A stretch of 34,073 bases of DNA from a virus. Where the stretch lies: positions 1 through 34,073 of IMG/VR virus record IMGVR_UViG_3300047334_000042. One strand, 5' to 3'. The translations under genes and the position numbers were made by a program. Below are positions 1,866 through 27,349 of the stretch, one piece after another (the stretch's first letter is position 1; every line of letters begins with the position of its first letter). The notes below the pieces were generated by a model. It was given only the letters and a program-made list of their open reading frames with translations, had not been told where the DNA came from and did not search any database.

Positions 1866-2842
1866 GTGCCGGCCGACGCCTGGTGCGCCTGGATCGTTGT
1901 AATCCAAGACATGCCGGACGGCTGACGAAAGTTACCGACATGCCGCAGCGTGTCTATTTGGAACGACCCTTGGTAAATGCTTGACTGCTTGTATTGCGAC
2001 AGCGAGTTCTGTGTTGTCTCAACAAGCGCTGGAGGCATCTTGATGTAGTCGCCCACGGAGAGGTCAGCGCGCATGACGCAGTTCATGCTGATCTGCAGCG
2101 GACCAAACGCAACGGGCTGGCCAATAAGGTCGGTAAATTGAATTTGCTTAGGTGTTGTCACCGTAGTCCCATCGTAAACATTGAAGGAACTGTCTCCGAC
2201 AACAATGTCGACCCCTTGGTAGGTGCCGCCTACTACATCCTGACTAATCTGCTTCAGGTATTGTGCAAACTGCGTCAGGTTGCCGTAGAAGCCCTTCTCG
2301 TCCGTGGCGAGCACCAGATTCTTACTGATGTTGATTGTTTGCTTGTAGGTTGGGAACGCCGTTGTCAGCGCCGTCGCAATAGCCTGCGCCAGCGGTGTGC
2401 CTGCTTTCCAGTTGATAACGATATTCTGTGGAGGTGGTGTTGTAGGACCACCGACGTCGGGCGATGCCGCAGCCACAACTTGCATATCCAACGTCATATC
2501 CGTTCCAATCCAGTTCCCGTAAGCCTGGAGGATTTGTCCGGATATCAAAAGCCCTGCTTGTGCTGGGTTGGCCAGCGGTAGCCCTTTTTGCATGCCGCCA
2601 TAGATGGCGACCAGCTTACCGTTCAGGTTGCGCGCTTGCGCGATGTCCTGGATGGAGATGCCCCACACGCGCGCAAACGCATTGCCCGTGGGCACTGCGT
2701 AGGGCGCGGTCATGAAGTCAAACTCAACATTCAACGCGCCCGGATCATTCACGCCGTTGGGATAGCTGTCATATAGCGACACGGTCTTCTTCGACGTTGG
2801 GTCCGTTATCACGAACTTATAGTATCTTATGACACGGACCAA
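1862..2842 (-). CDS. Baseplate hub protein (gp27/gpD-like)
   Basis: The 326-residue product opens with a beta-rich region (YYKFVITDPTSKKTVSLYDS) and has a charged, aromatic middle (GLLISGQILQAYGNW, DEKGFYGNLTQFAQYLKQI). Hub proteins carry this kind of layout, and the gene lies directly before the spike gene, the usual hub place. It should form the trimeric hub that joins the tube to the spike. The frame begins at TTG 2842, which overlaps the end of the 70-residue gene by 16 bases; no ATG or GTG is near and no clear ribosome site is visible, so the start is uncertain. The stop overlaps the spike ATG. Only one cysteine is present. Confidence 0.8.
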   Translation of the reverse strand: MVRVIRYYKFVITDPTSKKTVSLYDSYPNGVNDPGALNVEFDFMTAPYAVPTGNAFARVWGISIQDIAQARNLNGKLVAIYGGMQKGLPLANPAQAGLLISGQILQAYGNWIGTDMTLDMQVVAAASPDVGGPTTPPPQNIVINWKAGTPLAQAIATALTTAFPTYKQTINISKNLVLATDEKGFYGNLTQFAQYLKQISQDVVGGTYQGVDIVVGDSSFNVYDGTTVTTPKQIQFTDLIGQPVAFGPLQISMNCVMRADLSVGDYIKMPPALVETTQNSLSQYKQSSIYQGSFQIDTLRHVGNFRQPSGMSWITTIQAHQASAGT

Positions 2843-3039
2843 TCACTAAAGAAGCACGTTATTTTCCAACCGCATTCGAGGTTGGCTTTGAGTGCGGCCT
2901 GGTAGGCTGCGCTCTCTGTTTCGAAATAAGTGACGCCGTTGAGCTTTGCAGTCCAGTAAGGATTCCCCGCACCGAGCACAAGAAACACGGCGTTCGTAAA
3001 GCCCTTACCTACACGCTCAATGACGTAATCTTTTTTCAT
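2827..3039 (-). CDS. Small protein of unknown function in baseplate cluster
   Basis: The 70-residue product starts at ATG 3039, overlapping the upstream stop (ATGA). It reads MKKDYVIERVGKGF and then NPYWTAKLNGVTYFETESAA, which suggests a small compact alpha/beta fold with a helix around residues 42-53. I do not recognise the family. The gene sits between the plug and hub genes and is coupled to both, so a baseplate or assembly role is plausible but is inferred only from position. It overlaps the following hub frame by 16 bases. There is no membrane segment or signal peptide. Confidence 0.7.
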   Translation of the reverse strand: MKKDYVIERVGKGFTNAVFLVLGAGNPYWTAKLNGVTYFETESAAYQAALKANLECGWKITCFFSDWSVS

Positions 3040-3326
3040 GGGCTGATTTCAAACCACTGTGACTCGTCCCGCCAGATCATTGTCGAGGTAAAGTAACCCG
3101 CTGTCAGTGATATGTCCCGGCCGGAAGACAGCGCACCGGAGATTGGTGGTGACGCAATGCGGGGCAGACACACAATCAACACACCGTCGGCTGAGTAGAT
3201 GTTCACATAGTAGCGTTGACCAAACAAGTTCCACGTCACTGTCACAGTGTAGGGGTTGCCGTCCAGCGTTGCAGTGAATTGAAACGCAGCGTCGGGCGGT
3301 TGTGTGAAATTGACGTAGGTTGTCAT
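3036..3326 (-). CDS. Baseplate plug protein (Pam3 gp18 / DUF6983-like)
   Basis: The 96-residue, all-beta product contains PYTVTVTWNLFGQRYYVNIY followed by SADGVLIVCLPRI. The pattern T-x-x-W-N-x-x-x-x-R-Y-Y-x-x-I-Y-x-x-x-G-x-L-I is characteristic of the small plug protein described in the cyanophage Pam3 baseplate. The plug closes the tube channel at the hub. Its place between the hub gene and the tape-measure-proximal gene fits. The start ATG 3326 overlaps the stop of the preceding gene, and the stop overlaps the next ATG. The family is assigned from memory of the pattern. Confidence 0.78.
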   Translation of the reverse strand: MTTYVNFTQPPDAAFQFTATLDGNPYTVTVTWNLFGQRYYVNIYSADGVLIVCLPRIASPPISGALSSGRDISLTAGYFTSTMIWRDESQWFEISP

Positions 3327-4099
3327 GGTAGATCGGTTGTCGTCACGGTGCCGGGTGTGTAGCCTGCTGTTACGTCCACGTAGCCCGGAGCCGCTGTGCC
3401 AGCAAGGTTGCTCCCACCCGTCACCTGGCCGGCCGACCCACCTACGGGCGTGCCTGTAACAGCATCCGGGCCAGACGTGGCGCCTGCCGTGGGTTGCCCG
3501 TTATTGAGCTTGGACATCAGGGTATTGAGCGACTGCGCGGCCTGCGCTTGCGTCACCAGCGGTTTGATGAAGTCAAACTGCCAAGTATTCTGCACTTGTG
3601 CGGACTCGCCGTTGCTGGTGTCCGTCAGCGTAAGCAAAATCAAGTTCTGGTAGATGTAGGCCGGTGTCGCAACCACGAACAAACCACCGAGATTGATGTG
3701 ATTGTCCAATATCTGCTTCAGTGCCATGAAAGTTATCAGCTTGGCCGTATAACCACCCGCCTGCCTCACAGGGCAGATCATCTGCATGGATAACTTCAAC
3801 GGCTGCGTAATCACCGCGTTAGCTGCTACCGCCTGGTTCGCAAACGGGTAGGAGCCGATTGTGTTGTCGACCAGTGTGCTACCAGGTAGCGGCCGGAAGT
3901 GCGCAAAGAAGTTGTCTAAGTTGACGTCGATCGTGCCGTTCAGCAGCGTCGCTACGAAGTTAGCCGCCTCCGTGATCGCCACAATAGGGAGCATCCCACC
4001 CGGTATGTTGGACGCGATTCCGCCCTGTAGAACAATCGGCGAGATTTCGAACCCAAGCCGGAAAATAACCCGGCCAATGGTGTTGAGGACATCACTCAC
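3323..4099 (-). CDS. Probable baseplate / tail-tube terminal protein, unknown family
   Basis: The 258-residue product starts at GTG 4099, which overlaps the tape-measure stop (GTGA). The first 190 residues look globular (SYPFANQAVAANAVITQPLK, YTAKLITFMALKQILDNH, YIYQNLILLTLTD, NTWQFDFIKPLVTQAQA). The last 60 are a low-complexity Gly/Thr/Ala tail (GTPVGGSAGQVTGGSNLAG). A protein of this size and composition follows the tape measure in phages with the same sheath type, where it is placed at the tube-baseplate junction. I cannot name a family with certainty. The flexible tail may be an interaction arm. No cysteine-rich or signal-like segment is present beyond a single Cys. Confidence 0.7.
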   Translation of the reverse strand: MSDVLNTIGRVIFRLGFEISPIVLQGGIASNIPGGMLPIVAITEAANFVATLLNGTIDVNLDNFFAHFRPLPGSTLVDNTIGSYPFANQAVAANAVITQPLKLSMQMICPVRQAGGYTAKLITFMALKQILDNHINLGGLFVVATPAYIYQNLILLTLTDTSNGESAQVQNTWQFDFIKPLVTQAQAAQSLNTLMSKLNNGQPTAGATSGPDAVTGTPVGGSAGQVTGGSNLAGTAAPGYVDVTAGYTPGTVTTTDLP

Positions 4100-6105
4100 C
4101 GTGGCACGCCGACAAGCTGGCTACCGGAGACAGCCACTTGAGCACCGGCTGGATTGTTGACGTCCACTTGCACCTTGACCGGGGCCTGCCCAGCAGACTT
4201 TGCGCTGGACGTTTGGCGAAAATCACCAATGCCACGCTGCGCATAGTCGATATAATGCTTGGTCTCGGCCGGCAGAAACTTGCGCCAATCCTTATGATGC
4301 GCGGCGATGTCCGCATCTATGTTACCGGGGCCGTCGTTGTAGGCCGCCAGCGCTTCAGTAACGTCGCCGTGGTAGTGTTTAATCAAATCCCGCAAGTAGT
4401 CCGCCGCCGCTGTCGCGCCCTCCTGCGGATCGAGCGACTGCCCGCCAGGGTAGTCTTTGGCTGTGTCATCCGTAAACTGGAAGTCGCCCTTGGCGCCAGC
4501 AGGTGACGTAGAGGGGTTGCGACCTTGATCTGATTCCAGTTTGTAGACGTTGGCCAGTAAGCCGGCCGGAAGATTTGCTCCGTATTCCTGAGCAAAGAAC
4601 TCGTCACGCCTGTCGGGGTCCGTTGCGGCATTATAGAACGGATCAGTGACTTTGCGGCCTTCCGCATCCACACCTGTCAGCTTGACGCCGGCCGCACGCG
4701 CAAGTCGCCGGTAGTCGTCCGCTGGTGTCGGAGGCGGTATCTCGAACCGTTCTTGATACCACTTCGGTGTAGCGGCCGGCACGTCATAGGGCGCTTGGTC
4801 CACGGACCGACCAGCAGGCACGGCAGCGGGATGTGCCGCATACCAAGCAGCAGGATCGTTTTGCGCTGCTGGCGGCACTACCTCGGGGTGTTGTGCATAC
4901 CAGCTAAGTTTCTCGCCGTTAACAACAGTGTTGGGATCGTCGCCCGGCCCCTCGCCGGGTGTTTGGTTGACGACCTTAACCGGACCGAACTTACCCTCGA
5001 TCCACGTCACTACGTTTTCGAGCATGTGCCACAGCTTTACCACGGCATCTTCGAAATGACCTAGATCAGCAGTAAAGCCGTTGGGATCATTTAGGTAGTC
5101 CGCAAAATGTTTGATGCCTGTAGCAAGGTCACCAATCCATTCTTTTATATGCGGGTTCGCCATCAGAGATTCGACAGCCTTAGTGAAAGCAACGGACAAC
5201 TGCGCCAGCGGCCCTTCAAGTGGAATCAAGCCTTCAATGAAGGTGCGCTCAATCCGCACGCCGGCGCGCTCCATTTGCACATCGAAGTCTTGCCAGGCTT
5301 TGGCGTCCTTCGGGGGTAGCGTCAGCGCCGCTTTATCCTGCTCGTAGTCTTGTTGGCTTTGGTTCAAGTCACCCGCAGCCAAACGGCGCAAATCCTCTTG
5401 CGAGAATAGTTGATCCAAACCGTGCGCTTGGACAAATTGCTGTGAGCGGTCACTGTTCAAATACATGCGCTTCGCGCGCGACATCACATCCGTGGCAAGG
5501 GTTGCTGGGTCTTCGTTGTTTAGTTCACCCTCACCGATACCAAGTGCTGAGAAAATCCAGCGCTTACTATAGTCCGACTTTGCGTCCGCGATGTTGGACA
5601 ACAAATGGTCGGTATCGAGATACCGACTATAATTGATCCGCATGGCGTCGGCCTCGCCAGTCGTAACCCCGACGCCTTGCGCGCTGCGTAGCTTGCTGCC
5701 AGCGGATTGTGCAAGACGATCAATGCCCCATATCCCGCCAGCACCTAGCAGACCACTGACCAGCTCCGTCACGGTCGCCCATTTCAGCAGGCTTTCCGTC
5801 GCTTCCTTAATGTGCCGGGCCACGTCCACCGTGCTACGCGCCAAGCTGGACATGCTGCGGCCGCTGCTCTCCGTGGCGCGGCTGAAGCCCTGCTGGTGCT
5901 CGGCCATCGTCTTCGTGTGCTGCTCGATAGCAGACAGCGCGTTCGCAATAGCGTCCAGATGCGTGCCGTGCTCGGACAAGGCCGTAGTAACGTCTTGCCA
6001 CTGTGCCGGCAGCTTTTCGACCGAGGCTTTGTATTCATCAAAGCGATTGACAAAGGATTTGAAATCCTCGTCTTGCACCTCAATCTGAAGGACGGATACT
6101 GCCAC
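4096..6105 (-). CDS. Tape measure protein with C-terminal lytic transglycosylase domain
   Basis: The 669-residue product starts at GTG 6105 behind an AGGGGA ribosome site. Residues 1-110 are helical with coiled-coil character. A hydrophobic Gly-rich stretch follows at 111-127 (TVTELVSGLLGAGGIWG), then helical spans to about 375 and a Pro/Ala-rich linker with two WYA(A/Q)HP motifs at 402-426. Residues 512-600 resemble a soluble lytic transglycosylase: VYKLESDQG with candidate catalytic Glu524, AKGDFQF at 539 and AYNDGPGNI at 588. The protein would set tail length and cut peptidoglycan during DNA entry. I found no cysteine in it. It follows the frameshifted tail chaperone, the standard order. 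Confidence 0.93.
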   Translation of the reverse strand: MAVSVLQIEVQDEDFKSFVNRFDEYKASVEKLPAQWQDVTTALSEHGTHLDAIANALSAIEQHTKTMAEHQQGFSRATESSGRSMSSLARSTVDVARHIKEATESLLKWATVTELVSGLLGAGGIWGIDRLAQSAGSKLRSAQGVGVTTGEADAMRINYSRYLDTDHLLSNIADAKSDYSKRWIFSALGIGEGELNNEDPATLATDVMSRAKRMYLNSDRSQQFVQAHGLDQLFSQEDLRRLAAGDLNQSQQDYEQDKAALTLPPKDAKAWQDFDVQMERAGVRIERTFIEGLIPLEGPLAQLSVAFTKAVESLMANPHIKEWIGDLATGIKHFADYLNDPNGFTADLGHFEDAVVKLWHMLENVVTWIEGKFGPVKVVNQTPGEGPGDDPNTVVNGEKLSWYAQHPEVVPPAAQNDPAAWYAAHPAAVPAGRSVDQAPYDVPAATPKWYQERFEIPPPTPADDYRRLARAAGVKLTGVDAEGRKVTDPFYNAATDPDRRDEFFAQEYGANLPAGLLANVYKLESDQGRNPSTSPAGAKGDFQFTDDTAKDYPGGQSLDPQEGATAAADYLRDLIKHYHGDVTEALAAYNDGPGNIDADIAAHHKDWRKFLPAETKHYIDYAQRGIGDFRQTSSAKSAGQAPVKVQVDVNNPAGAQVAVSGSQLVGVPR

Positions 6106-6205
6106 GCAAATCCCCTGGCCTACAGGCCGTTTAGCTGCTGGCCGCTACCCTACTGCCCGGCAACCCCCAAAACGGCTTGGCGGTGTGCCGTTTGGCTTGA
6201 ATTAG
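6106..6205 (+). repeat. Intergenic structured repeat, copy B
   Basis: The gap between the chaperone T stop (6211) and the tape-measure start (6105) holds a GC-rich element. Bases 6169-6205 are a near-identical inverted copy (36 of 37 bases) of 29749-29785. The core is a 7-bp stem, AAACGGC and GCCGTTT, around a 10-base loop. About 30 bases before it on the plus strand is GCTGGCCGCTAC, also present in copies A and C. In this copy the shared orientation is on the plus strand, antisense to the genes. No U-run follows, so it is not a clear terminator. Confidence 0.75.
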
Positions 6206-6210
6206 GTGGG

Positions 6211-6902
6211 TTAAGCAACCCGGCGCAGGCGGCGCAACTCGTGCAGGACAAAGCGCTGCCGCCATTCGTGTGCCGACCGTATATCCACCGACGAAAAGAA
6301 CGCCGCAAATCCCTCGTGCATCAGGTAGTCTAGGACGGCACCGACGATGCCGCCACCGTTGCGGGCATCGGTAAAGTCGCGGTCTCGGTCGATGTCGGCA
6401 ATGAACCTTTCCACTCCGTAACAGTCAATAATGTAGTTTGGGTCCGCCAGACAGCCCCCAGCCCCGTCAAGACTGACTGTATCTCGGCCTTCCGGTGGAT
6501 TGCCGAGGCGCACATAAAAAAAGCCAGCAGCCCTTCAACCTCCGCGAGATCGTCCTCGTCCAGCAATCCGCGCGTGACGGCCGCATCCAGCGTGATAGTT
6601 TCCCAGCCGCGATCCGTCAGCATCACCACGTTGGCCAGCCGACGCATTTCGAGTAGCAAACCCTTTTCCACAGTCTCGAGCTGGCCGAGCCCCTCGGCTA
6701 CACGCCGCAGCATGAGAGCAGCGATGCGTGGACCTGAGATGATGGACAAACCCTGCTTGTAGATGCGGGCAAACGTGCCGGCAATGACTTCGAAGTGCTG
6801 TTCGTAGGCTTCCCGCATCAGCGGCATGGCGTGGACATAGATAATCCCGCTGTCTTGTTTCAGCGGGATTACGAGGTTCAGCTTCTTATTGATGCGAACC
6901 AC
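6211..6902 (-). CDS. Tail assembly chaperone GT fusion (made by -1 ribosomal frameshift)
   Basis: Two overlapping minus-strand frames lie between the tube and tape-measure genes, where lambda-type G/GT chaperones are found. The second frame (GTG-containing, stop at 6211) is -1 relative to the first. A T7 run at 6516-6522 gives the slippery heptamer T-TTT-TTT in the first frame. Shifting there joins 129 residues of the G frame to 101 of the T frame, for a product of about 230 residues. The T part reads FYVRLGNPPEGRDTV and ends in an Arg-rich helix (RQRFVLHELRRLRRVA). GT proteins bind the tape measure while the tube forms. The second frame has no convincing start of its own. Confidence 0.88.
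6330..6902 (-). CDS. Tail assembly chaperone G (unshifted product)
   Basis: The 190-residue product starts at GTG 6902, one base after the tube stop and without a strong ribosome site, so it is probably coupled to tube translation. It is mostly helical (MPLMREAYEQHFEVIAGTFA, EGLGQLETVEKGLLLEMRRL, LLDEDDLAEVEGLLAFFMC). The region past the slip site (residues 130-190) becomes Thr/Ser/Pro-rich (TSTETATLPMPATVAASSVPS) and looks disordered. G-type chaperones coat the tape measure in excess over GT and are absent from the virion. The role is assigned from gene order and the frameshift arrangement, not from residue similarity to lambda G. Confidence 0.85.
   Translation of the reverse strand: MVRINKKLNLVIPLKQDSGIIYVHAMPLMREAYEQHFEVIAGTFARIYKQGLSIISGPRIAALMLRRVAEGLGQLETVEKGLLLEMRRLANVVMLTDRGWETITLDAAVTRGLLDEDDLAEVEGLLAFFMCASAIHRKAEIQSVLTGLGAVWRTQTTLLTVTEWKGSLPTSTETATLPMPATVAASSVPS
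6483..6507 (-). promoter_or_regulatory. Frameshift-stimulating stem-loop
   Basis: On the minus strand, CTCGGC (6507-6502) pairs perfectly with GCCGAG (6488-6483) across a 13-base loop. The stem begins 8 bases after the slippery heptamer, inside the 5-9 base spacing seen at known -1 frameshift sites. It lies within the region read in both frames. Confidence 0.65.
6516..6522 (-). other. Slippery heptamer for -1 programmed frameshift
   Basis: On the minus strand the G frame reads GCT-TTT-TTT-ATG, so the seven Ts form T-TTT-TTT of the X-XXY-YYZ type. The -1 frame continues TAT-GTG-CGC into the T frame, which stays open for 102 codons. It lies 130 codons into the G gene. Confidence 0.88.
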
Positions 6903-6903
6903 G

Positions 6904-7350
6904 TTACGTCAAGTTCCACAAGTTAGAATTGATGTAGTAAGCGCCCGTGACGTGGACGATATAGCCGGGGTCATCGCCTGCGAAGGACACCTCGGATACG
7001 GTCTCGATGGCGCAGTTGGACAGGTAGTAATTCGGAAACACGGACGTATCCGAAGTCACTGTGATGTCCCCAACAGTGGCGATGGTTTCAATCTGCTGCT
7101 TCCACAACGACGCAAGGTTCTGTGTTTTCAGCAAGTGGATCATCAAACTGGCCATCTGAAACGGCTCAGGTGACGTGACGTTTCCCGTCTGTGTTGGGAT
7201 CATCAGCGTAGTGTTGCCCTCCAGGGTCAAGCGTATCATTTGCTTGCCCATGAAACCCGCCGTGACATTTAGCTGCGGATAATTAGGAACTACCACGCTC
7301 GGACGAAGCCGGTTGAGCGTGCCCTGCGGGATGAGGTTGTTCGCGGCCAT
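6904..7350 (-). CDS. Tail tube protein
   Basis: The 148-residue, beta-rich product starts at ATG 7350 with GGAG seven bases upstream. It reads NRLRPSVVVPNYPQLNVTAG, then KQMIRLTLEGNTTLMIPTQT, TVGDITVTSDTSVFPNYYLSN and a final beta region (GYIVHVTGAYYINSNLWNL). A tube gene directly follows the sheath gene in contractile-tail phages, and the size fits a tube subunit. Hexameric rings of this protein would form the DNA channel. The V-x-D-I-T-V-x-S-D stretch resembles the antiparallel beta-sheet core of tube proteins, but I assign it mainly by order. One cysteine is present. Confidence 0.85.
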   Translation of the reverse strand: MAANNLIPQGTLNRLRPSVVVPNYPQLNVTAGFMGKQMIRLTLEGNTTLMIPTQTGNVTSPEPFQMASLMIHLLKTQNLASLWKQQIETIATVGDITVTSDTSVFPNYYLSNCAIETVSEVSFAGDDPGYIVHVTGAYYINSNLWNLT

Positions 7351-7367: not shown

Positions 7368-8687
7368 TTATGCCGTCGGGATGTCGGAGACTTGGACGTT
7401 AAAGAGAATGGACTCAAAGCCGCGACGGGGTGTGTAAATCACCGCCAGGCCATTGTAGACCCCATTCGGGTAGTCAGACTCATTGGTGAGCACATAAGCC
7501 GCGAACGGCACGGCGGTCACCGCCACTGGCGGCAACACCAGCCCGTAGGTCACGCCGCGATTCATCGTGCCTTGCGCGCGAGCTTGCAGGCGGTTGATGC
7601 CGTTCTGGTCGTAGTAGAGCGGCGCTTGCGGATTGTTGCTGCCGTTGATAATTTCGTTCGACAGATCCAAGTTCAGGTTGATCTGCACCCAATCGACAGA
7701 AAACCAGTAGTTGAACGGGTTGCCGTCCATCGTGGTGCCCCACAGCACCATTGTATTGCTGATCCCACCCTCAGCACCAGTGCCGACCCAATTTACGAAT
7801 GCGGCTTTCCACGTCGCAAACAGGGCTGCGTTACCCTTGGTCGGGTAGGGGGTCACGCCATACAGGAACGCAAACGCGTTTGGTGTGACCATGTTGGTCG
7901 TCGAAGGGTTGTAGTTGATTGTGACATACATAAAAGCAGCGGCGCTGAACTCGGTTGCCGGTATGCCAGGTGCCTCGATTACGGCATACACGCATTTCAT
8001 CAGATTGGTGAAGTTCGTGTATGCGCCCGGACCAGTATTTGTCGCTGTAACGAAGAAGTAAGTCATCGCCTCCGGGTTCTCGTAGCTGGCCAAGAACGAG
8101 AGGAACGAGGACGCGGCGGCCCACGCACGCGGGACAAGAAACGAGTAGATGGTTTGCGGGTTGGCCACGATGTAGGTGTTCAACGCCGTAATGGCGTCGA
8201 TGGTGTCGATGGCTCCCAGCTCGAGAACCAGCACGGACGCGGTTGTGCCTTGTGCAAACCACGTCGTCGCCATCGCCACCAGTTCAGCCGCTTCCTCCAC
8301 GGCCACGCTGCCGAAGATGGTCGCGGTGCCAGGGTTGCTTGCCAGCGGGTAGGTGAAGGCCGTTGTGGTTGTGATCGTTGCCAGAAACGTGCCGTTGTAG
8401 CCGGCCGGGGTAGCGCCGGTGATGGTTAGTGAGACGACCTCACCGATGGTGTAGCCGTGCGGCACGGTCGCGGTCGCGGTCACAACGCTACTGGCCCAAA
8501 CCAGATTGGACAGCGTCTTTGCCGTTGCCAGCAGCGGTGTGAGATCGGCGTATTGCGTGAGCAGCCCGGTGTTGCCGGCCCCTAGCGTAGTGCCGCCAAG
8601 CGAGATCAGCGCGCCCGTGCGCTGTAGGGTGCTCGCAGCCGGCGCGACGGTCTGGCTGACGGCAACTTGGACAATCGCGTTCGACAT
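7368..8687 (-). CDS. Contractile tail sheath protein (DUF3383-like)
   Basis: The 439-residue product starts at ATG 8687 with a strong GGGAGGG site five bases upstream. The opening (MSNAIVQVAVSQTVAPAAST, then TGALISLGGT and LTQYADLTPLL) and the body (SFLSFLASYENPEAMTYFFV, AFLYGVTPYPTKGNAAL, QARAQGTMNRGVTYGLVLPP) match DUF3383-type sheath proteins as I recall them. It forms the contracting outer layer of the tail. Residues about 62-130 hold an extra Ig-like module also found in the head protein at 18278-19126. The C-terminal part ends in the strand-rich region RRGFESILFNVQVSDIPTA. Only one cysteine was seen. Confidence 0.92.
   Translation of the reverse strand: MSNAIVQVAVSQTVAPAASTLQRTGALISLGGTTLGAGNTGLLTQYADLTPLLATAKTLSNLVWASSVVTATATVPHGYTIGEVVSLTITGATPAGYNGTFLATITTTTAFTYPLASNPGTATIFGSVAVEEAAELVAMATTWFAQGTTASVLVLELGAIDTIDAITALNTYIVANPQTIYSFLVPRAWAAASSFLSFLASYENPEAMTYFFVTATNTGPGAYTNFTNLMKCVYAVIEAPGIPATEFSAAAFMYVTINYNPSTTNMVTPNAFAFLYGVTPYPTKGNAALFATWKAAFVNWVGTGAEGGISNTMVLWGTTMDGNPFNYWFSVDWVQINLNLDLSNEIINGSNNPQAPLYYDQNGINRLQARAQGTMNRGVTYGLVLPPVAVTAVPFAAYVLTNESDYPNGVYNGLAVIYTPRRGFESILFNVQVSDIPTA
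8298..8504 (-). repeat. Ig-like module shared with head protein (sheath copy)
   Basis: Residues 62-130 of the sheath contain VVTATATVPHGYTIGEVVSL, then GATPAGYNGTFLATI, FTYPLASNPG and a closing G-x-V. The head protein has the same series of motifs (PHGY or AHGY, YNG, PLAS-x-PG) in the same order and spacing. It is a protein-level repeat, not a DNA-level copy. Confidence 0.75.
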
Positions 8688-9128: not shown

Positions 9129-12100
9129 TTACTCTATTTCCACAATAATCGGATCATCGCCCAGCGTCACTGTGACCGAAGCCCCGCTTGAGAACGTCTG
9201 TGTTGGGTTGCTGCCCGTGATTGGATCATAAACGTTGACTGCGGCAGCGGTCGGCAGGGTCACGGTGACGCTATGTGACCCGAGCGAAATCTCCTGGCCG
9301 GTTGCCGGATTCCATGACGTGCCGTCCTGCCAGAGCAGGAGGTCGTAGACACCGCCCGGTTGCTCCAGCAGGAGCGAATATGCGTCGGACGGCATCCCGC
9401 TCAGCGTGTAGGCCAACGTGCCGGGCACTTGCAACACGCCGCCAGCCGGGTTGCGCTCCAAAATCGTCGTCAAGTTTTGCAACGCTGTAGCGGCCACCTT
9501 TGGAATAACAGTAGACGTGCCGTTGTTCTGGAAGAGTCCAAAGTAGTTATTGAAATTGGTCGATGCCGGGATAACCGGCGGATAGTCTTGCAGGTTGTAG
9601 AGATAGGTCCGCGCGACGGTCTGTATCGGTGCGTCAAACAGGAACCGCAAATCGTAGCGGGCTTGCGTGGTCTGGTCGACACCCAGCGTATAGTTCGTCG
9701 GAATGGTGGACAGGCCGGCCTCAGTCACCCAGCCGGGCTTCGTATCCGCAAGCACTTCGTAGAGCAGGCAATAGGACAGCGTAGCAGCGGCCGACGACGT
9801 GTTGCTGGCGTAGCAGTGCCGATCGTCGATGTCGGCAAGAGGCCCGACCTGGAATCCATTCGAGTTGACGCCGACGCCCAGCGTGAACGTGGCGACAGGT
9901 AGCACCGTCGTAGGAAGTGTGGGGCAGAACACTCCGGGGACGCAATTCCCGTCGCTCTTGATGGCCGAGTAGAGCGCGGTCTGATACGCGACCGCGCCAG
10001 CGCCGCTCGCGATGCCGACTCCGTTGTAGCTGTCCGGCGACGGGCCGAGAATAACCTCGTTCTCGCCGCCAATCGCTTCCACTACTCCGGCAGTCACCGG
10101 ATCGACGTAGGTCGTCACCCACGACGCTTCGCTACCTGCGCCCGTCGGCGGGATATTGCAGAAGCAATAGGCTTGCATCTCCAGCACCTTGGCGATGGTC
10201 GCCGAGTAGGCGCTGATTTGCGCGGCCGTCTGGCCGGTCACACCGGCTTGCAATCGGACGTGTTTGATCCCCGTGTAGGCCAGCAGCGGGCCGTCCGTTG
10301 CGGCAATGCCTGATCCGTTCACACCGATACTGTCCACGAACGTCGAAGCCAGTTCGGCCTGTTGCTCGCCCTGCGTAGCGGGCGGCCAATCGCCCGCCTG
10401 GTTCGCGAGAGACGTAAACTCCGGGCTGATGGCCGGCAGCACCTGACTCCCGCCGACGTTGTTATAGGCCCCCGTTCCGAGAACCGTCGTGCCTGAGCCG
10501 GTAGCGATGTTCGTCACTGTCAGCGGCGCTGGCGATATGGAGTCCGTGTAGGCAACCGATTCCGTGCAGACGCCAGGCACTTGCAGCGCGAATTTAATCT
10601 GACCAAACCCCGCCGACGTGCCTTCGCGCTGCGATACGGCCCCCATCGGATTGCCGGCGATCAAGAGCTGATTGCTTTGCATGGCGTTTGCCATCTGACC
10701 TGTGACGGCCACGATACCGCTGGACGAGATCGGCGGCAGATCGACAGCTTGGACAGTGTAGTGCGTCACCTGCGGGCTGTTCGAGGCGGTCGGCGAGGTC
10801 TGCGTGAAAGTGATGACTTCGCCGAGAACGGGGGTGCCTTGCAGTTTGACGGTGCCGCACGTAGCCGAGACGGACAGATATGATCCGTTTATGGTCGGGT
10901 TGCCGACACACCCCGGCGCAGGCCCGCACTGAGGGTTAGGCGAGACGAATTTGTTGTCTATGTAGAACGCGGCGGTCTGGCCGCCAACAGGGCTGCCAGC
11001 AGCGTCACCTGTGCCGATCTTAAAGCCCTGGACGGAAGATCCGTCGCATACGTTACCGACGACGTGCGCGTATATGTTCGCGCCACCGACGACGTTGCAG
11101 TAGTTTCGCGAGAGGTAGTAGGTTCCAACGTCCCAGTAGGGACCGGAGACGCCGTTGTTCGCGGCGCCGCCACCCGATCCGTTACCGTTCGTGCCGCCGT
11201 TGTAAGCCAGCGGCGAGGACACCCCTAGCGAGTCTGTTATCGTAGCGGTGGCGACGCAGGCGAGATTGCCAGGGAGCCTCCACTCGAAAGCGTGCGTGTA
11301 GGTGGTCGCGTGCCCGGCATACCATGCGTAGGTTTGCAGCGACACGCCGTTCACCACGATAGGCGAGGCGTTCACCACCGCCGCCATGTTCGCCATGACG
11401 GAGCGCAGCGGATCGGCCGCCGCGATGTCGCCAGATGTCACGGTGTAGGTCGGATATGTCTGTACGGAAGCGCCCGCTGGCCGGGACAGGCTGAGCGCGA
11501 GCGTCAATTGTTGCCCGAGCTGCGGCGTGCCGGCAATGCCGATCGTGTAGCAGGTCGGCACGGTGCTGCTGTTGTTCGTGTAGTCCTGGAAGGTCGTGCC
11601 GTTGGCGGTGTACTGCGGCGGTGTGGAGTTCGTCCGCGCCGAGCGCAGTATGTCACCGCCGAGAATAGACGAGTTCGCGACGGTGCCGTTCAGAGTGCTC
11701 GGCTGCAATCCGAGCATGTCGTAGTATATGAACGACGAACCGTAAGTCGCGTAGCGAGATGCGTCCGTGAACACGTCCCACAGAACAGAGTAGCCGTTCG
11801 GCGCCGGCATACCGCCGACTTTGAGCGCGCCCAGCGCCGAGAACCAGCTCGTCTGCCCTATGCTGTGAACGACACCGCAGTCCTGACCCGTGAGGTAGTA
11901 GTGCGACGCGCCTACATTCTCACTATCTAAGTGGTCCATCGTCACGCCGCCGACGGCGACAACCGATCCGGTGCCGTTCGGGCCGCTCCAGATAGTGCCG
12001 TTGGCGTTTTCGCAGACTACGCCGTGGCCGCCGGTCGTGAGACCGGGGGTGTTGGTAGCAGCGACGTTGGAGTAGTTGCCATTCGTCGTTAGGTATCCAA

Positions 12101-12512
12101 CATAGGCGTTGTTCCCGATCATGTCGATCAGGTCGAACGGGTTCGCCAGCAGCGCCGTTGTGTCGGCGTTCAGGCTTGATGTCGGCCCGGTATTCGCCGT
12201 GATCATCTGCGCGGACGGAAAGAGGCGTAGCTGCGTCTCCCTGGCCTGCCCGACAGCGTCAGGCGTCGCCAAGTGGACAGGTCCGTCACCGAACAACACG
12301 GTGCCGTCGTTCGGCACTGTGATCGCGCCCGTCATGTCGCACTGAGAAACGGCCGTTCGGATATGGACGTAGCCGCCTATTCCGGGCGGAACGGCGGCGG
12401 TAAGCTGGTTGATGGCGGCCACGTCGGCCGGCGTGCCCGTGCAGCTATAGGTCGCGGCGCGCGCGTGGCCGCAACACAGCAGCGCCAGCAAGAGTGCGAG
12501 AATGCGCGTCAT
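9129..12512 (-). CDS. Exported tailspike-like protein with beta-helix and clan GH-A-like glycosidase domain
   Basis: The 1127-residue product starts at ATG 12512, overlapping the fibre gene stop (ATGA). Residues 1-20 form a signal peptide (MTRILALLLALLCCGHARA, cut at ARA). Residues 21-540 are beta-rich with repeated G-N and Y-N turns, like a beta-helix; 545-670 is another beta domain. Residues 720-975 look like a TIM-barrel glycosidase: IGGENEV with candidate acid/base Glu819, DDRHCY at 896-901, and GWVTEAG with candidate nucleophile Glu931. The 112-residue spacing suits clan GH-A enzymes. The end (about 1030-1127) resembles their C-terminal beta sandwich. The mature part has 18 cysteines. 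It probably cuts a host surface polysaccharide; the substrate is unknown. Confidence 0.8.
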   Translation of the reverse strand: MTRILALLLALLCCGHARAATYSCTGTPADVAAINQLTAAVPPGIGGYVHIRTAVSQCDMTGAITVPNDGTVLFGDGPVHLATPDAVGQARETQLRLFPSAQMITANTGPTSSLNADTTALLANPFDLIDMIGNNAYVGYLTTNGNYSNVAATNTPGLTTGGHGVVCENANGTIWSGPNGTGSVVAVGGVTMDHLDSENVGASHYYLTGQDCGVVHSIGQTSWFSALGALKVGGMPAPNGYSVLWDVFTDASRYATYGSSFIYYDMLGLQPSTLNGTVANSSILGGDILRSARTNSTPPQYTANGTTFQDYTNNSSTVPTCYTIGIAGTPQLGQQLTLALSLSRPAGASVQTYPTYTVTSGDIAAADPLRSVMANMAAVVNASPIVVNGVSLQTYAWYAGHATTYTHAFEWRLPGNLACVATATITDSLGVSSPLAYNGGTNGNGSGGGAANNGVSGPYWDVGTYYLSRNYCNVVGGANIYAHVVGNVCDGSSVQGFKIGTGDAAGSPVGGQTAAFYIDNKFVSPNPQCGPAPGCVGNPTINGSYLSVSATCGTVKLQGTPVLGEVITFTQTSPTASNSPQVTHYTVQAVDLPPISSSGIVAVTGQMANAMQSNQLLIAGNPMGAVSQREGTSAGFGQIKFALQVPGVCTESVAYTDSISPAPLTVTNIATGSGTTVLGTGAYNNVGGSQVLPAISPEFTSLANQAGDWPPATQGEQQAELASTFVDSIGVNGSGIAATDGPLLAYTGIKHVRLQAGVTGQTAAQISAYSATIAKVLEMQAYCFCNIPPTGAGSEASWVTTYVDPVTAGVVEAIGGENEVILGPSPDSYNGVGIASGAGAVAYQTALYSAIKSDGNCVPGVFCPTLPTTVLPVATFTLGVGVNSNGFQVGPLADIDDRHCYASNTSSAAATLSYCLLYEVLADTKPGWVTEAGLSTIPTNYTLGVDQTTQARYDLRFLFDAPIQTVARTYLYNLQDYPPVIPASTNFNNYFGLFQNNGTSTVIPKVAATALQNLTTILERNPAGGVLQVPGTLAYTLSGMPSDAYSLLLEQPGGVYDLLLWQDGTSWNPATGQEISLGSHSVTVTLPTAAAVNVYDPITGSNPTQTFSSGASVTVTLGDDPIIVEIE

Positions 12513-17236: not shown

Positions 17237-18262
17237 TTAGTAGGGCATGGACACAATGGTGATGGCCTCGGGACGCAAGCCCCAGCCCGAGGTGATCCGC
17301 ATCTCGGAAACCACGTCGATCGCCCCGCCCGGAATCGGGGTGGGAATCTCCCGAGGTGCGGCCATGTCGCAAAGCTGGATGTTGGCCGCTTCAAGACCGG
17401 GGGTCAGCTCGGCGAACTCGTTAGTGTTGATCTTCTGATTCTGCACCTTCGGCTTGCGCACCTCCGGCATGGTGATGATCACAGCGTCGGACCCGCCGCT
17501 GCCCTTGCCGATCAGTGTATCGTCGTAGACCCATTCCAGCGTATCACCGTTCATCTCCAGCACCTTCTCTGTCATGCCGGCCGTTGAATCAGTGCCCGCA
17601 CCCGGACGCTGGAACTGAACAAGCTGGACAATGCCCGCATACGCGAACTGGGCCAAAGTTTGCTGGCTGCCACAGATGGTGATTTTAACACCTTGGCCCA
17701 TCTGGAACATGCGCGTCTTGAGCGCGGACACCTGGCCGATCAGGAATAGCGCCATCGCACCGTTGTCGTAGGTGCGAACCGTTGTGTTGCCGTTCATGTC
17801 CGGAGGCAGCAGCACAGCCGTCGCGCCGTTGGTATTCAACAAGCCCTCGCCGTTGGCTGGATTGAACCCATACAGCAGCGCGTTACGCACGTTGCCGAAG
17901 TGACCCTGTCGCATACCGAGGCGCTGGGCGTCGACGATGCTGTAGCCCCACTTGGCGGCGGCGGCGGTGTCGTGGTGATCGTATTCCGCCCGGATACGCT
18001 GGAGGTAGGTCGGGGTCTGGATCATTGACGTGATGGTTTCCACCGACGGCAGCTGATTGTATGCCGTCTGGCCGGAGGCGACCTTGGTCCGCAGCTCCAT
18101 CTTCTTGGCGTAGACGAACAGATCACCTTCGCCGAGCCGAACCATTGGGTTGCCAGTCGCGATGGTCTCGAACGCGCCGGACGCCTGCTGATATTGCAAC
18201 AGAAATTCCGGGAGGACATAGCTCGGGTGGATCATCACCCGTGCCGGAGTCACGTTGGGCAT
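17237..18262 (-). CDS. Major capsid protein (DUF2184-like)
   Basis: The 341-residue product starts at ATG 18262 with a strong GGGGAG site eight bases ahead. Features that fit DUF2184-type HK97-fold capsid proteins include the early LPEFLLQYQQASGAF segment, a YLQRIRAEYDHHDTAAAAKW region, an E-loop-like acidic and Gly-rich centre, the ITICGSQQTLAQFAYAG helix, and the closing P-domain-like strand region ending ITSGWGLRPEAITIVSMPY. It is the shell-forming protein of the head. It follows the scaffold and head surface protein and is followed by structured element C, which may affect mRNA level. It has two cysteines. Confidence 0.9.
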   Translation of the reverse strand: MPNVTPARVMIHPSYVLPEFLLQYQQASGAFETIATGNPMVRLGEGDLFVYAKKMELRTKVASGQTAYNQLPSVETITSMIQTPTYLQRIRAEYDHHDTAAAAKWGYSIVDAQRLGMRQGHFGNVRNALLYGFNPANGEGLLNTNGATAVLLPPDMNGNTTVRTYDNGAMALFLIGQVSALKTRMFQMGQGVKITICGSQQTLAQFAYAGIVQLVQFQRPGAGTDSTAGMTEKVLEMNGDTLEWVYDDTLIGKGSGGSDAVIITMPEVRKPKVQNQKINTNEFAELTPGLEAANIQLCDMAAPREIPTPIPGGAIDVVSEMRITSGWGLRPEAITIVSMPY

Positions 18263-19129: not shown

Positions 19130-19969
19130 TTATGCCTCCTGGCTGACGCGGCGCAGTCGGGCGCCCATTGGGTCCATTTTGAATGGAGCCCAGCACGCCT
19201 CCGGGCTGCCGACGAACTCCGTGATGGCCCGGCCGGAACCATCCCGACGCGTGATGGCCCGCAGCGTATTGGCCGGCAAGTCGGTTGGGTTCAGCGCCGC
19301 TGCTTGCGCGTCCGCATAAACCTGGCTTTCGACCACACCGAAGTGACCTTCGTCGACGATCTTGGACAGGTCGATGTCCTTCCAAGTCGTGCTGTGCTTC
19401 TGAAACGCCGAGAGCTGGCGCTTGCGATAAGCAAACGGAGTCTCACCCGCCAGCGGCCGGGGGGCGGACGAACCAAACAGCTGAGCGACGCTGTCAGCGC
19501 GTGCCTGGATCTCGGCCATCTTGTTGTAGTCCTCATCAGACAGCACCTTGGGCATGTTGCGCTCGAGCGCTGCCAGGCGCGCCGCCGTGTCGGCCGCATC
19601 CTTGCGCGCCTTGTCCTCGCGCTCCTTCTCCTCGGCGTCCTTGCGCGACTTGTCCTCGCGCTCCTTCTCCTCGGCGTCCTTGCGCGACTTGTCCTCGCGC
19701 TCCTTCTCCTCGGCGTCCTTGCGCGACTTGTCGGCTACCGGCTGTTCCGGCTCGCCCTTAACCTTCTTTTCCTCAGCGTCCTTTTTGAATTGGTCTTCCA
19801 TCGCATCCAAACGCGACACTGTGTCCGCCATGAACTTGTCCATGCGCGACATGCACGCATCGAGCCGGGTGGCGCGTTCCTCCGCATCCTTGCGCGCCTT
19901 GTCCTCGCGCTCCTTCTCCTCGGCGTCCTTGCGGGCGGCGTCAGCACGGTCCTTGTCTTCTTCAGGCAT
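19130..19969 (-). CDS. Probable nested scaffold product from internal start
   Basis: Inside the fusion gene, an in-frame ATG at 19969 (codon 311, MPEEDKDRADAARK) has GGAGG at 19979-19975 with a five-base spacer. This is among the best ribosome sites in the window and lies exactly at the border between the protease-like part and the coiled coil. Translation from here would give a 279-residue scaffold without protease or NUDIX domains. Phage lambda C/Nu3 and other phages make scaffold this way from an internal start in the protease gene. The site is seen directly; its use is inferred. Confidence 0.7.
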   Translation of the reverse strand: MPEEDKDRADAARKDAEEKEREDKARKDAEERATRLDACMSRMDKFMADTVSRLDAMEDQFKKDAEEKKVKGEPEQPVADKSRKDAEEKEREDKSRKDAEEKEREDKSRKDAEEKEREDKARKDAADTAARLAALERNMPKVLSDEDYNKMAEIQARADSVAQLFGSSAPRPLAGETPFAYRKRQLSAFQKHSTTWKDIDLSKIVDEGHFGVVESQVYADAQAAALNPTDLPANTLRAITRRDGSGRAITEFVGSPEACWAPFKMDPMGARLRRVSQEA

Positions 19970-20899
19970 GGTAGCCTCCACAGCAGTTGATGAAAGGACG
20001 CCTTGTGGCGCGCCGCCCTTATCCCAAACACCTAATTCACAGATCGCCACATGGTCAACCAAGCTAGGCGTGCCCTCGATCAGCACCGTGCCGCCGTCAT
20101 CCAGAGTAGAGTCGTCATTGGCCAACGGTCGGAAGTAAGTCAAACTGGAACCCAGCAGCACACCGGGCGACGTGGACAGCACTTCGCTGCCCATCATTGT
20201 AATTGCGTCTTTGTCGAAAACCTTCGCAATACCCCACACTTCATTATCATTAATGTAGGGTAGGAAGATTGTGCCAACAATACGCTTGCTGAACTCGTCA
20301 CTGTCCAGCAGCGGCTTCTCAGGATGATCCCACAGGACCGGCAACCCGTTGCAGCGCGCTAGAAAACGCTCGTTCAGGTAGAGTGTAGGGTCGCGCCAAG
20401 TGTATTCGTTATTCTTGACGCGGTAGGCCGCACCCGTGCCTGTAATGCGCAGCGCAAACAGGGCGACGTTCTGGTAAATCTGTGGCGACACCAGATCACC
20501 GGACGAGATCATTCGCGCGATGTCGAGTTCGTCAGCGGTCAGCTTTGCCAATGCTACCGCACACCCCGGATGAAGTGGTTCCGGAGGCGCTTGTGGGTCC
20601 GCCCACATGAAACCCGTATGCTCGTCGTTAAGCACGGGATTGAATTTGTCGCATAGCTGGACGAATGTTGTGTAATCAACACCGTCCTTTACGCGCCGGC
20701 ATAGTAGCTTGCGCGCACCTGTAGGGCAAGTGCCGAGCTCCTCTTTACACTCGCGGACAGCCGCTTGCTCAGCAGTCTCGCCAGCCTCCATCTTACCGCC
20801 AGGCGCGCCCCACGCGCCGGGTGCGTCACCTTGGTCGCTGCGCTGTAACAGCAGCACTTGCCCATCAGCGATAAAGAGAATACCGGCAGCTTGGATCAC
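19130..20899 (-). CDS. Fusion of NUDIX hydrolase, DUF2213-like head protease and coiled-coil scaffold
   Basis: The 589-residue product starts at GTG 20899, overlapping the upstream stop (GTGA). Residues 1-120 are a NUDIX domain; G35 to G56 match the Nudix box G-x5-E-x7-R-E-x2-E-E-x-G exactly, with E53 and E54 as metal ligands. Residues 140-300 resemble DUF2213, a presumed head maturation protease: GLPVLWDHP with candidate His192, GSSLTYFRP (candidate Ser251 or Ser252) and DHVAICELG. Residues 311-445 are a charged coiled coil with repeats of 13 residues (RKDAEEKEREDKS). Residues 446-589 are a globular C-terminal part. The neighbours (capsid and portal) fit a scaffold/protease role. NUDIX may hydrolyse a nucleoside diphosphate compound; the substrate is unknown. 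Confidence 0.85.
   Translation of the reverse strand: MIQAAGILFIADGQVLLLQRSDQGDAPGAWGAPGGKMEAGETAEQAAVRECKEELGTCPTGARKLLCRRVKDGVDYTTFVQLCDKFNPVLNDEHTGFMWADPQAPPEPLHPGCAVALAKLTADELDIARMISSGDLVSPQIYQNVALFALRITGTGAAYRVKNNEYTWRDPTLYLNERFLARCNGLPVLWDHPEKPLLDSDEFSKRIVGTIFLPYINDNEVWGIAKVFDKDAITMMGSEVLSTSPGVLLGSSLTYFRPLANDDSTLDDGGTVLIEGTPSLVDHVAICELGVWDKGGAPQGVLSSTAVEATMPEEDKDRADAARKDAEEKEREDKARKDAEERATRLDACMSRMDKFMADTVSRLDAMEDQFKKDAEEKKVKGEPEQPVADKSRKDAEEKEREDKSRKDAEEKEREDKSRKDAEEKEREDKARKDAADTAARLAALERNMPKVLSDEDYNKMAEIQARADSVAQLFGSSAPRPLAGETPFAYRKRQLSAFQKHSTTWKDIDLSKIVDEGHFGVVESQVYADAQAAALNPTDLPANTLRAITRRDGSGRAITEFVGSPEACWAPFKMDPMGARLRRVSQEA
19601..19732 (-). repeat. Tandem 39-base repeat encoding charged coiled-coil units
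   Basis: Three near-identical 39-base units begin at 19601, 19640 and 19679, followed by a partial fourth to about 19732; another single copy lies at 19889-19927. Each encodes RKDAEEKERED plus two residues. The repeats are in frame with the scaffold part, so unit number can change without breaking the gene. Confidence 0.92.
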
Positions 20900-21753
20900 G
20901 CCGCTGTCCTCCGTAGGGCGCGCACACGCGCCAGTTCGTTGTGCCCCTTCGGTGTAATCATGTCTGGTGGTAACGCGCTAATGGCGTAGATGTATTGGTA
21001 GTGACACCTGCAAAGGACTTCCTCACCTGGCTTAGTCATATCGTCCGTGTAGCCCGCGCCCTTGTTCATTAGGCCTTTCTCTATTGCCCAATTCCCACGG
21101 ATTGCGTAGACCTTGAGGTCGCGTTCCTTGTGGTCTTCGCGGTAGTTGTAGCCTAGCTGACGCCAATTACTATGCCACACAGCAGCGATAGCACCACCAT
21201 CCACCGCAATGATATTGTTGAGTTCGGAAGTAAACTTGTGCCCTTGGTCGATCAGGACGCGGCGCTCTTCAAACGGAAGCTGTGACAGCGCTTTGCGTAA
21301 TTCCTTCTTTACCTCGGGCTTACGCACGGCGTCGCTGCCGTCAGGTGGGATTGAGGTGGACCAGCCAGAAAACCGTTGTAGCGTCTTTTGAATTGACGCC
21401 TCGCGGTTCAACTTGATCAAGTTAGCGGAAGCCAGTATGCGACGATCGAGTTCCGCCCGGAGGCGAGGCTTGACGCGATCCAGCGTAAAGCGGGCAACAC
21501 CGGGGTGCTGACGCAGTATGTCGCCCCGCTCCACAACACGCTGGTAGACGCTGCCTAGCACACGCGCCAGCTCCTCGCGCAACTTGTATTCGGGCACCAT
21601 GCTACGCAACGCGGCACGCCGCAGCACCTCCACCCAACGCACTAGACGCTCATGGTCGTCATAACCATGCTCGGCGAAGTCCGCGATAGCTGTGGACAAC
21701 GCTTCAACAAACGTCGGCTCGTCAGGGAGCGCCTTAGCCAACGAACTGCACAA
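20896..21753 (-). CDS. Head morphogenesis protein (Mu gpF-like)
   Basis: The 285-residue product is helical at first (residues 1-120) with REELARVLGSVYQRVVERGD. The C-terminal half has the signature of the Mu gpF/SPP1 gp7 minor head protein family: AAVWHSNWRQLGYNYREDHK, then a Gly-rich loop, and PGEEVLCRCHYQY near residue 245. The gene follows the portal, the usual order, and ends by overlapping the GTG of the protease/scaffold gene. Such proteins enter the procapsid with the portal. The start is uncertain: the frame begins at TTG 21753 (overlapping the upstream gene by 20 bases) and has another TTG at 21741. Confidence 0.88.
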   Translation of the reverse strand: MCSSLAKALPDEPTFVEALSTAIADFAEHGYDDHERLVRWVEVLRRAALRSMVPEYKLREELARVLGSVYQRVVERGDILRQHPGVARFTLDRVKPRLRAELDRRILASANLIKLNREASIQKTLQRFSGWSTSIPPDGSDAVRKPEVKKELRKALSQLPFEERRVLIDQGHKFTSELNNIIAVDGGAIAAVWHSNWRQLGYNYREDHKERDLKVYAIRGNWAIEKGLMNKGAGYTDDMTKPGEEVLCRCHYQYIYAISALPPDMITPKGHNELARVRALRRTAA

Positions 21754-26926: not shown

Positions 26927-27349
26927 CTAATTCCCCTGGCTGACGGAAACCACGGCCGCCGCCGTGCAGAAGACATGCACGCTGGCCAGCGTCACGCCGT
27001 CCGACAGAACGCTGGGCGGCGGTTCTACGATGTTCCACACGTAGCCGCCCGGTATCGGCGTGGAGGTCGCAGTCGCCGCCGTGCTGTCATCGGTCATGGT
27101 GCATGTCGCGTTGTTCGGGACGATCCGCAGCACGCGCGCGAACACCACGCTTGCCGTCGTGCCGGTCGGGGCCGTCCAGACCAAGGTGGACACACTGGCC
27201 GGCACGCTGACAGACACGTCCCCCTGCATGGTCTGGCCAGGGGCCAGCGGTGTGATCTCCATGCCGTTGTAGACCGCGCCCGCCTGTGCCCATGCGACGG
27301 CAGGGAGCAGGCACAGGGCCGCCGCCAGCGTCTTCATCGTGCCGCCCAT
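26927..27349 (-). CDS. Small exported beta protein in fibre cassette
   Basis: The 140-residue frame has two candidate starts: ATG 27349 (AGGAG seven bases ahead) and ATG 27337 (overlapping the upstream stop as ATGA). Either gives a signal peptide (MKTLAAALCLLPAVAWAQA, cut at AWA). The mature part is about 117 residues and beta-rich (QGDVSVSVPASVSTLVWTAP, SVVFARVLRIVPNNATCTM, VTLASVHVFC). It has two cysteines, which could form one disulfide. The gene lies between the tailspike-like and esterase-like genes and is coupled to both. It could be a fibre accessory, chaperone or capping protein; no family is recognised. Confidence 0.72.
   Translation of the reverse strand: MGGTMKTLAAALCLLPAVAWAQAGAVYNGMEITPLAPGQTMQGDVSVSVPASVSTLVWTAPTGTTASVVFARVLRIVPNNATCTMTDDSTAATATSTPIPGGYVWNIVEPPPSVLSDGVTLASVHVFCTAAAVVSVSQGN

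Follow-up and report, generated by a model that had tools for sequence, protein, structure and literature searches.

The slippery heptamer of bacteriophage lambda is G_GGA_AAG. In lambda, a -1 frameshift between the tail chaperone gene and the T frame, beside the tape-measure gene, yields two products, gpG and gpGT, at an unequal ratio of 30:1, according to PMC5009743; there, U_UUU_UUU is reported to cause far less shifting in E. coli constructs than A_AAA_AAG does. Slip sites on T runs are reported for contractile-tailed phages in PMC3931495: T6G in P2 (gpE/E+E'), T7G in the P2-like phage Smp131 and, as a prediction, T7C in related prophages. There, E' has no ribosome-binding site and reaches only 37 nt back into E. 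A long overlap is described in PMC4378225 for the D3112-like phage PaMx73, where a T TTT TTC site is predicted at codons 116-118 and the stop follows 43 codons later. T-run slip sites in tail genes are thus already known; the protein families studied here are unnamed PHROGs.

We analyzed a virus record of 34,073 bases (referred to as the window, i.e., the whole stretch of DNA), whose minus strand carries two reading frames that we call G and T. The locus is likened to that of lambda by arrangement, not by sequence, and the lambda slip lies near the 3' end of G, whereas here it lies 61 codons ahead of the G stop in the window and 53 to 76 codons (median, 62) ahead of it in 37 representatives of the group. 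It resembles P2 and Smp131 in its contractile tail and T-run site but differs from them in its proteins, which belong to the unnamed PHROGs 11810 and 14324, and in a dual-coded overlap of 61 codons (again 53 to 76 in the 37 representatives). PaMx73 also has a long overlap, but its tail is that of a siphovirus and its proteins are others. Judged from the sequences, the locus very probably encodes a tail assembly chaperone of the G/GT type by way of programmed -1 ribosomal frameshifting.

G, the zero-frame product, is encoded by an ORF of 190 codons with a GTG start (6330..6902, minus strand) and matches phrog_11810, a family with no named function (PHROG E value, 3.4e-43). Around the slip site, the minus strand reads ...GAG GTT GAA GGG CTG CTG GCT TTT TTT ATG TGC.... 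The slippery heptamer T_TTT_TTT, followed by an A (6516..6522, minus strand; A7 at 6516-6522 on the plus strand), consists of the third base of G codon 127 and of codons 128 and 129; the zero-frame codons are GC(T) TTT TTT, specifying Phe128-Phe129, and then ATG. The -1 frame stays open between 6534 and 6211, a span of 107 codons from stop to stop. From the heptamer onward it constitutes T (6211..6522, minus strand), with 103 codons and a stop, which belongs to phrog_14324, again with no named function. A profile built without the window, from the T sequences of the other 36 representatives, matched the window T at an E value of 1.6e-22 and matched nothing else among 647 window ORFs. The overlap (6330..6515, minus strand) carries the C-terminal part of G in the zero frame and T in the -1 frame. 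The initial annotation of this DNA had reported a T_TTT_TTT in the zero frame, an eight-base spacer and a perfect 6-bp stem, and all of these are present as written in the window. It had also held that the T frame has no good start; the earliest possible start in the window is a GTG at 6513, within the signal itself, and 15 of the 37 representatives have none that is usable. The T7 alone is unremarkable, since 1.29 occurrences of T7 or A7 are expected in the window from its composition and one is present; what is remarkable is its place, phase and conservation. Among the 25 listed window ORFs, one of the six Phe-Phe pairs is written TTT TTT, namely, the pair in G.

A tblastn search with G found homologues in 14 phage records, all at less than 60% identity and with at least 80% query coverage; a second G query of phage records returned the same 14. 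Eight of these deposited relatives were examined; in each of them the aligned codons carry T_TTT_TTT in frame, and the -1 frame beyond it is open. Scans of viral contigs enlarged the set to 142 sequences, window included. A G match was found in 140 of them (L139 and L141 had no G hit and were dropped), and 139 of these loci have the site together with an open T frame. The remaining copy, in L121 (approximately 2501-3200), has a disrupted G frame, is perhaps a decaying tail gene and was excluded from the counts. Over the 139 loci, the site reads TTTTTTTA in 129, GTTTTTTA in 5, TTTTTTCA in 3, TTTTTTTT in 1 and TTTTTTCT in 1. These loci contain the window twice (WIN and L010) plus the near-identical contig L001, and most claims below rest on the 37 representatives, window included, that remained after dereplication at 90% nucleotide identity, because the 139 loci are redundant.

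The site is kept in all 37 representatives, as T_TTT_TTT in 33, T_TTT_TTC in 2 and G_TTT_TTT in 2, by a counting pattern, [T/G]TTTTT[T/C], that was fixed post hoc, once the exceptions had been seen. With the next base included, there are 32 T_TTT_TTT_A, 1 T_TTT_TTT_T, 1 T_TTT_TTC_A, 1 T_TTT_TTC_T and 2 G_TTT_TTT_A. The initial annotation had named conservation of the heptamer in relatives as a test of its own proposal, and the proposal passes it: T_TTT_TT[T/C], and with it the X_XXY_YYZ pattern, is present in 35 of 37, the other 2 being G_TTT_TTT. The first slippery Phe codon is TTT in 37 of 37 and the second in 35 of 37, compared with 82 of 216 Phe codons outside the site in the same G genes. 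Other ORFs of at least 250 amino acids in the 37 loci contain 3 in-frame T_TTT_TTT in 45,728 codons and write 15 of their 96 Phe-Phe pairs as TTT TTT. In an alignment of 30 G proteins with a median pairwise identity of 29% (lowest, 16%), the only invariant columns are Phe128-Phe129; these 30 were hand-picked from the 37, leaving out close look-alikes, L069 (which has a partial G frame) and L126. The T frame is open for 91 to 118 codons in all 37 representatives, and 34 of the 37 T sequences match phrog_14324.

The G_TTT_TTT variants, with a run of six T's and an intact T frame, are L050, L052, L057, L058 and L140, from two distant lineages. The level or mechanism of shifting may differ in them, because a P-site tRNA-Phe could not re-pair perfectly there after a tandem -1 slip. 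The next long ORF of L140 contains a second in-frame T_TTT_TTT, at approximately 7819, whose -1 frame stays open for 85 codons; this second site may be there by chance. T C-termini are mostly of the FREL..FKNPAGVL type in the Rac-SA53-like loci L002, L003, L091, L095, L103, L108 and L118, and an FR.R[YF]-type C-terminus is common in the other groups.

The near-identical contig shares both site and stem with the window and differs from it at two places across the compared part (6612-6106). Neither the contig scans nor queries with the tape-measure and tube proteins found relatives at an intermediate distance: the near-identical contig was the sole hit of the tape-measure query, and the tube query had none. 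None of 50,697 phage records matched T by tblastn at an E value of ≤1; unlike tblastn, the T profile does detect T on the fetched loci. The diverse G alignment contained no stretch conserved enough to serve as a search query, and in a scan of genome contigs, 0 of 286 pattern matches were confirmed.

We then compared substitutions on both sides of the site, using only pairs of sequences of equal length and limited divergence. In 55 such pairs of 21 representatives, which are not independent counts because of shared ancestry, the 99 nt immediately ahead of the site had 21/13/67% of their substitutions at G positions 1/2/3. The overlap gave 20/36/44%, and the stretch beyond the G stop, in which the wobble position of T corresponds to G position 2, gave 13/67/19%. 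The switch from position 3 to position 2 was also seen within the Felixviridae/Yersinia-like (62 loci), Rac-SA53-like (41 loci) and Shewanella-like (7 loci) groups, each named after the query that found it; the Shewanella-like group (20 pairs) stands apart from the others in that its overlap substitutions favor G position 3 (0/25/75%). In a synonymous-change test under the same restriction, the share of silent changes before the site (28 pairs) was 74.5% for G and 12.9% for the T phase, and after the G stop (44 pairs) it was 66.8% for T and 13.9% for the G phase. In the overlap (69 pairs), 38.0% were silent in G, against 26.2% for random placement, and 32.9% in T, against 25.9%; in both frames, this synonymous excess exceeded all 200 random placements. 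As read from these substitutions, both frames of the overlap are translated and under selection, and the substitution phase switches as a -1 fusion predicts. The site, its phase, its conservation and this coding selection are shown here, and the contractile-tail -1 frameshift joining G to T that the initial annotation had put forward is supported by a site found in 37 of 37 representatives and by coding selection in both frames.

The same -1 fusion would arise if RNA polymerase slipped on the T run and added one U. Bacterial transcriptional slippage usually needs longer runs. Of the 139 loci, 118 have an uninterrupted run of eight T's, as do 24 of the 37 representatives, so polymerase slippage is possible in many relatives; the run is seven long in 16 loci and 11 representatives, the window among them, and six long in 5 loci and 2 representatives. 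The T_TTT_TTC variants do not have shortened runs. Although run length thus ranges from 6 to 8, the codon-phased X_XXY_YYZ is kept in 35 of 37, and two lineages with six T's retain an intact T frame, as does the window with seven. Since the codon-phased pattern is fixed and the run length varies, ribosomal slippage on two tRNA-Phe is favored, and we judge polymerase slippage to be quite improbable. No fusion at all would be required if T were an independent gene, initiated inside G from the GTG at 6513 or a later start, or translated by coupling. The GTG in the window lies three codons into T, 20 others of the 37 representatives have some ATG, GTG or TTG within reach, and PHROGs keeps T as a separate family of 97 columns. 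However, 15 of 37 have no such codon between the upstream stop and 40 codons past the slip, so that ordinary internal initiation cannot make T in them, and 20 of 37 have none within the first 25 T codons; an independent T would also leave the conservation of the heptamer unexplained. We consider this account very improbable.

Homopolymers are error-prone, and a single base would join the two frames, so the arrangement might conceal one truly long ORF broken by a sequencing error or a frameshift mutation, or T might be decaying. We give these explanations almost no credence: the same frame arrangement occurs in 37 of 37 representatives from isolates and metagenomes, the near-identical second contig carries the same site and stem, and purifying selection on T in relatives speaks against decay. 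A further question is whether the heptamer and the stem form a classical two-part signal, with the stem as an essential stimulator. In the window, eight nucleotides past the heptamer, a 6-bp stem, CTCGGC/GCCGAG, encloses a 13-nt loop (6483..6507, minus strand): the spacer ATGTGCGC spans 6515-6508, CTCGGC 6507-6502, the loop 6501-6489 and GCCGAG 6488-6483. The distance is fitting, and the folding z score is -2.0 over 36 nt, -2.3 over 50 nt and -1.1 over 76 nt. The stem by itself is only mildly unusual, as equally good folding is found in 4.4% of 2,837 36-nt windows on the same strand and a perfect 6-bp stem occurs exactly 8 nt downstream at 0.8% of positions and 5 to 9 nt downstream at 3.1%. 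Over the 37 representatives, in contrast, downstream folding was not conserved (mean z, -0.29; median, -0.13; 5 of 37 below -1.5), and its mean rank fraction against control windows from the same genes was 0.52. The preservation of the stem in the near-identical contig says little. An essential two-part signal is thus unlikely, and the initial annotation, which had counted the stem as part of the signal, holds for the presence of the stem in the window but not for its conservation in the group.

As a general conserved element of the group, the stem was rejected, there being no excess folding over the 37 representatives. It is at most a local modulator in the virus of the window, where it may still have a role, the one close relative that turned up being almost the same sequence. 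Upstream of the heptamer, a Shine-Dalgarno-like sequence, GGAGG (6543-6539) and GAAGGG (6536-6531), lies 16 and 8 nt away, respectively (6531..6543, minus strand), as a possible 5' stimulator that is largely explained by amino acid content. Shine-Dalgarno-like energies upstream of the site are raised in the group relative to other positions; when codons were resampled synonymously, 45 of 200 resamplings reached the best mean and 2 of 200 the mean over all distances, and a small residual signal beyond the protein sequence is possible. The locus differs from dnaX-type sites, which combine a heptamer with a downstream stem and an upstream Shine-Dalgarno sequence, in that a conserved downstream stem-loop was not found in the 37 representatives. 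A stimulator is not established, since the stem is not conserved and the Shine-Dalgarno-like signal is not clearly separable from amino acid content.

The surroundings of the site are those of a tail module. On the minus strand, the order is tail sheath (7368..8687; phrog_205 tail sheath; E value, 1.3e-31), presumed tail tube protein (6904..7350; phrog_6566, unnamed; presumed from its position after the sheath), G/T and a tape-measure-like protein with an SLT lysozyme domain (4096..6105; PF01464; E value, 5.3e-12; phrog_2013 lytic tail protein; E value, 1.4e-27). The tape-measure matches of the last protein are weak, PF20155 being below its cutoff. The tape-measure-like protein would be the expected partner of G and GT, and the tube protein would be that of the T part. 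The eight annotated relatives have ORFs of similar size and order, mostly named hypothetical protein. Between the T stop and the GTG start of the tape-measure gene lies a gap of 105 nt (6106-6210, minus strand), which folds no better than shuffled sequences (z, -0.75). In the Klebsiella phage RothD (L004), by comparison, the T stop lies beyond the annotated tape-measure start.

A structural model of G had a pLDDT of 87 and was confident to approximately residue 172, past the slip at residues 128-129, with residues 173-190 below a pLDDT of 50; that of T was helical, with a pLDDT of 72. Against BFVD, the rank 2 match of the G model was a named tail assembly chaperone (Foldseek E value, 0.028; probability, 0.97), and 7 rows with a chaperone name were among the best 50 listed. 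Searches of Pfam with the 30 G members gave no useful match (best E value, 0.027, one member). Foldseek of G against the PDB gave nothing at an E value of ≤0.001, and the best VIA-align Z score was 3.3. Against PDB sequences, the G profile returned two rows, both designed helical repeat proteins (best E value, 0.0061), and the T profile two rows, a designed protein (E value, 0.034) and a TIM chimera (E value, 0.89); the T model had no match among viral folds at an E value of ≤0.001. Gene order, the G/GT layout and the weak fold match of the model suggest that G is a tail assembly chaperone. The name is circumstantial, since there is no useful Pfam match and no confident match to a solved structure, the top viral fold match is uncharacterised, and six of the seven chaperone rows have E values of 0.3 to 1.1.

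Under the favored reading, programmed -1 ribosomal frameshifting, most ribosomes would read G to its end, making the 190-residue protein the abundant product. A minority with tRNA-Phe in the P and A sites on T_TTT_TTT would slip back by one base; the two tRNAs would re-pair with UUU UUU, after which UAU (Tyr) would be read and then the T frame. The predicted GT would consist of G residues 1-129 and 101 T residues, approximately 230 amino acids in all, with the junction ...AFF|YVRLG.... By analogy with lambda, many G copies would bind the tape-measure protein, and a few GT copies would recruit the tube protein through T. We infer that slippage takes place, that it is the work of the ribosome and not of RNA polymerase, how efficient it is and that G acts as a chaperone. 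A simple slippery site that has little or no stimulation would be expected to shift at a low level, as the lambda system requires.

Because 61 codons of G remain after the slip, G and GT would be proteins with alternative C-terminal parts rather than G and an extended G. This departs from the initial annotation, which had joined the whole 190-residue G to T: GT would carry G 1-129, with the last 61 residues replaced. We tentatively propose, as an idea we rate somewhat below an even chance, that the frameshift swaps rather than adds a C-terminal domain. The zero-frame half would complete the G fold and the -1 half would start the tube-recruiting T domain, so that the two proteins would have residues 1-129 in common and C-termini different in fold, and lineages with a natural G_TTT_TTT or T_TTT_TTC would differ in their G:GT ratio. 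The locus adds a group whose slip site is deep within G, one that can be used to ask what purpose the displaced end of G serves, and its natural heptamer variants are ready-made test cases.

Described phages of this group include the Felixviridae phages RothD, Chronis and PdC23 (PMC12629751 and PMC12451628; PdC23 is also mentioned in PMC11494819). Their G and T are homologous to those of the window, the heptamer recurs unchanged at the corresponding codons, and the G proteins share 30 to 32% identity with that of the window. In all eight deposited relatives examined, these three included, G is deposited as "hypothetical protein." The T gene is absent from the annotation of seven, and RothD has a 34-codon piece of T; the two unrelated ORFs that the initial annotation had expected from gene callers are therefore not what is deposited. 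None of the eight annotates a G/T fusion or slippage product. The word "frameshift" has no occurrences in the main text of PMC12629751 (KlebPhaCol, Felixviridae) or of the Yersinia phage paper PMC9224151, in which contractile tails are described by electron microscopy. Among the open-access titles and abstract openings listed, we found no description of this frameshift in Felixviridae or related phages.

The analysis proposes a function for PHROG families 11810 and 14324, both listed as unknown, and points to a conserved T gene that is missing or fragmentary in the deposited annotations examined. Its weight is modest: the result is solid and helps annotation, and it is not surprising. The families occur in phages and prophage-like contigs with the recorded hosts Klebsiella, Yersinia, Pantoea, Shewanella, Escherichia and Actinobacillus, as well as in environmental contigs. 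The records of Shewanella phage vB_Sb_QDWS (OK094664.1) and "Hujiaoplasma phage zrk29-1" (OP650936.1, given with a Tenericutes host) have an equal length of 47,902 and equal match scores, which may reflect an erroneous host label or a contaminant record.

Elsewhere in the window, three long ORFs on the minus strand (9129-12512, 23522-26923 and 27334-29601; 1127, 1133 and 755 amino acids) had no PHROG or Pfam match, the first at an E value of 0.1 and the others at E values of 0.01 and 0.001. A protein of 589 amino acids (19130-20899, minus strand) matches phrog_6216 (E value, 5.9e-149) and carries an N-terminal NUDIX hydrolase domain (PF00293; E value, 4.3e-17). It lies in the head module, where it adjoins a head-morphogenesis match (20896-21753) and is two genes from a capsid-like one (17237-18262).
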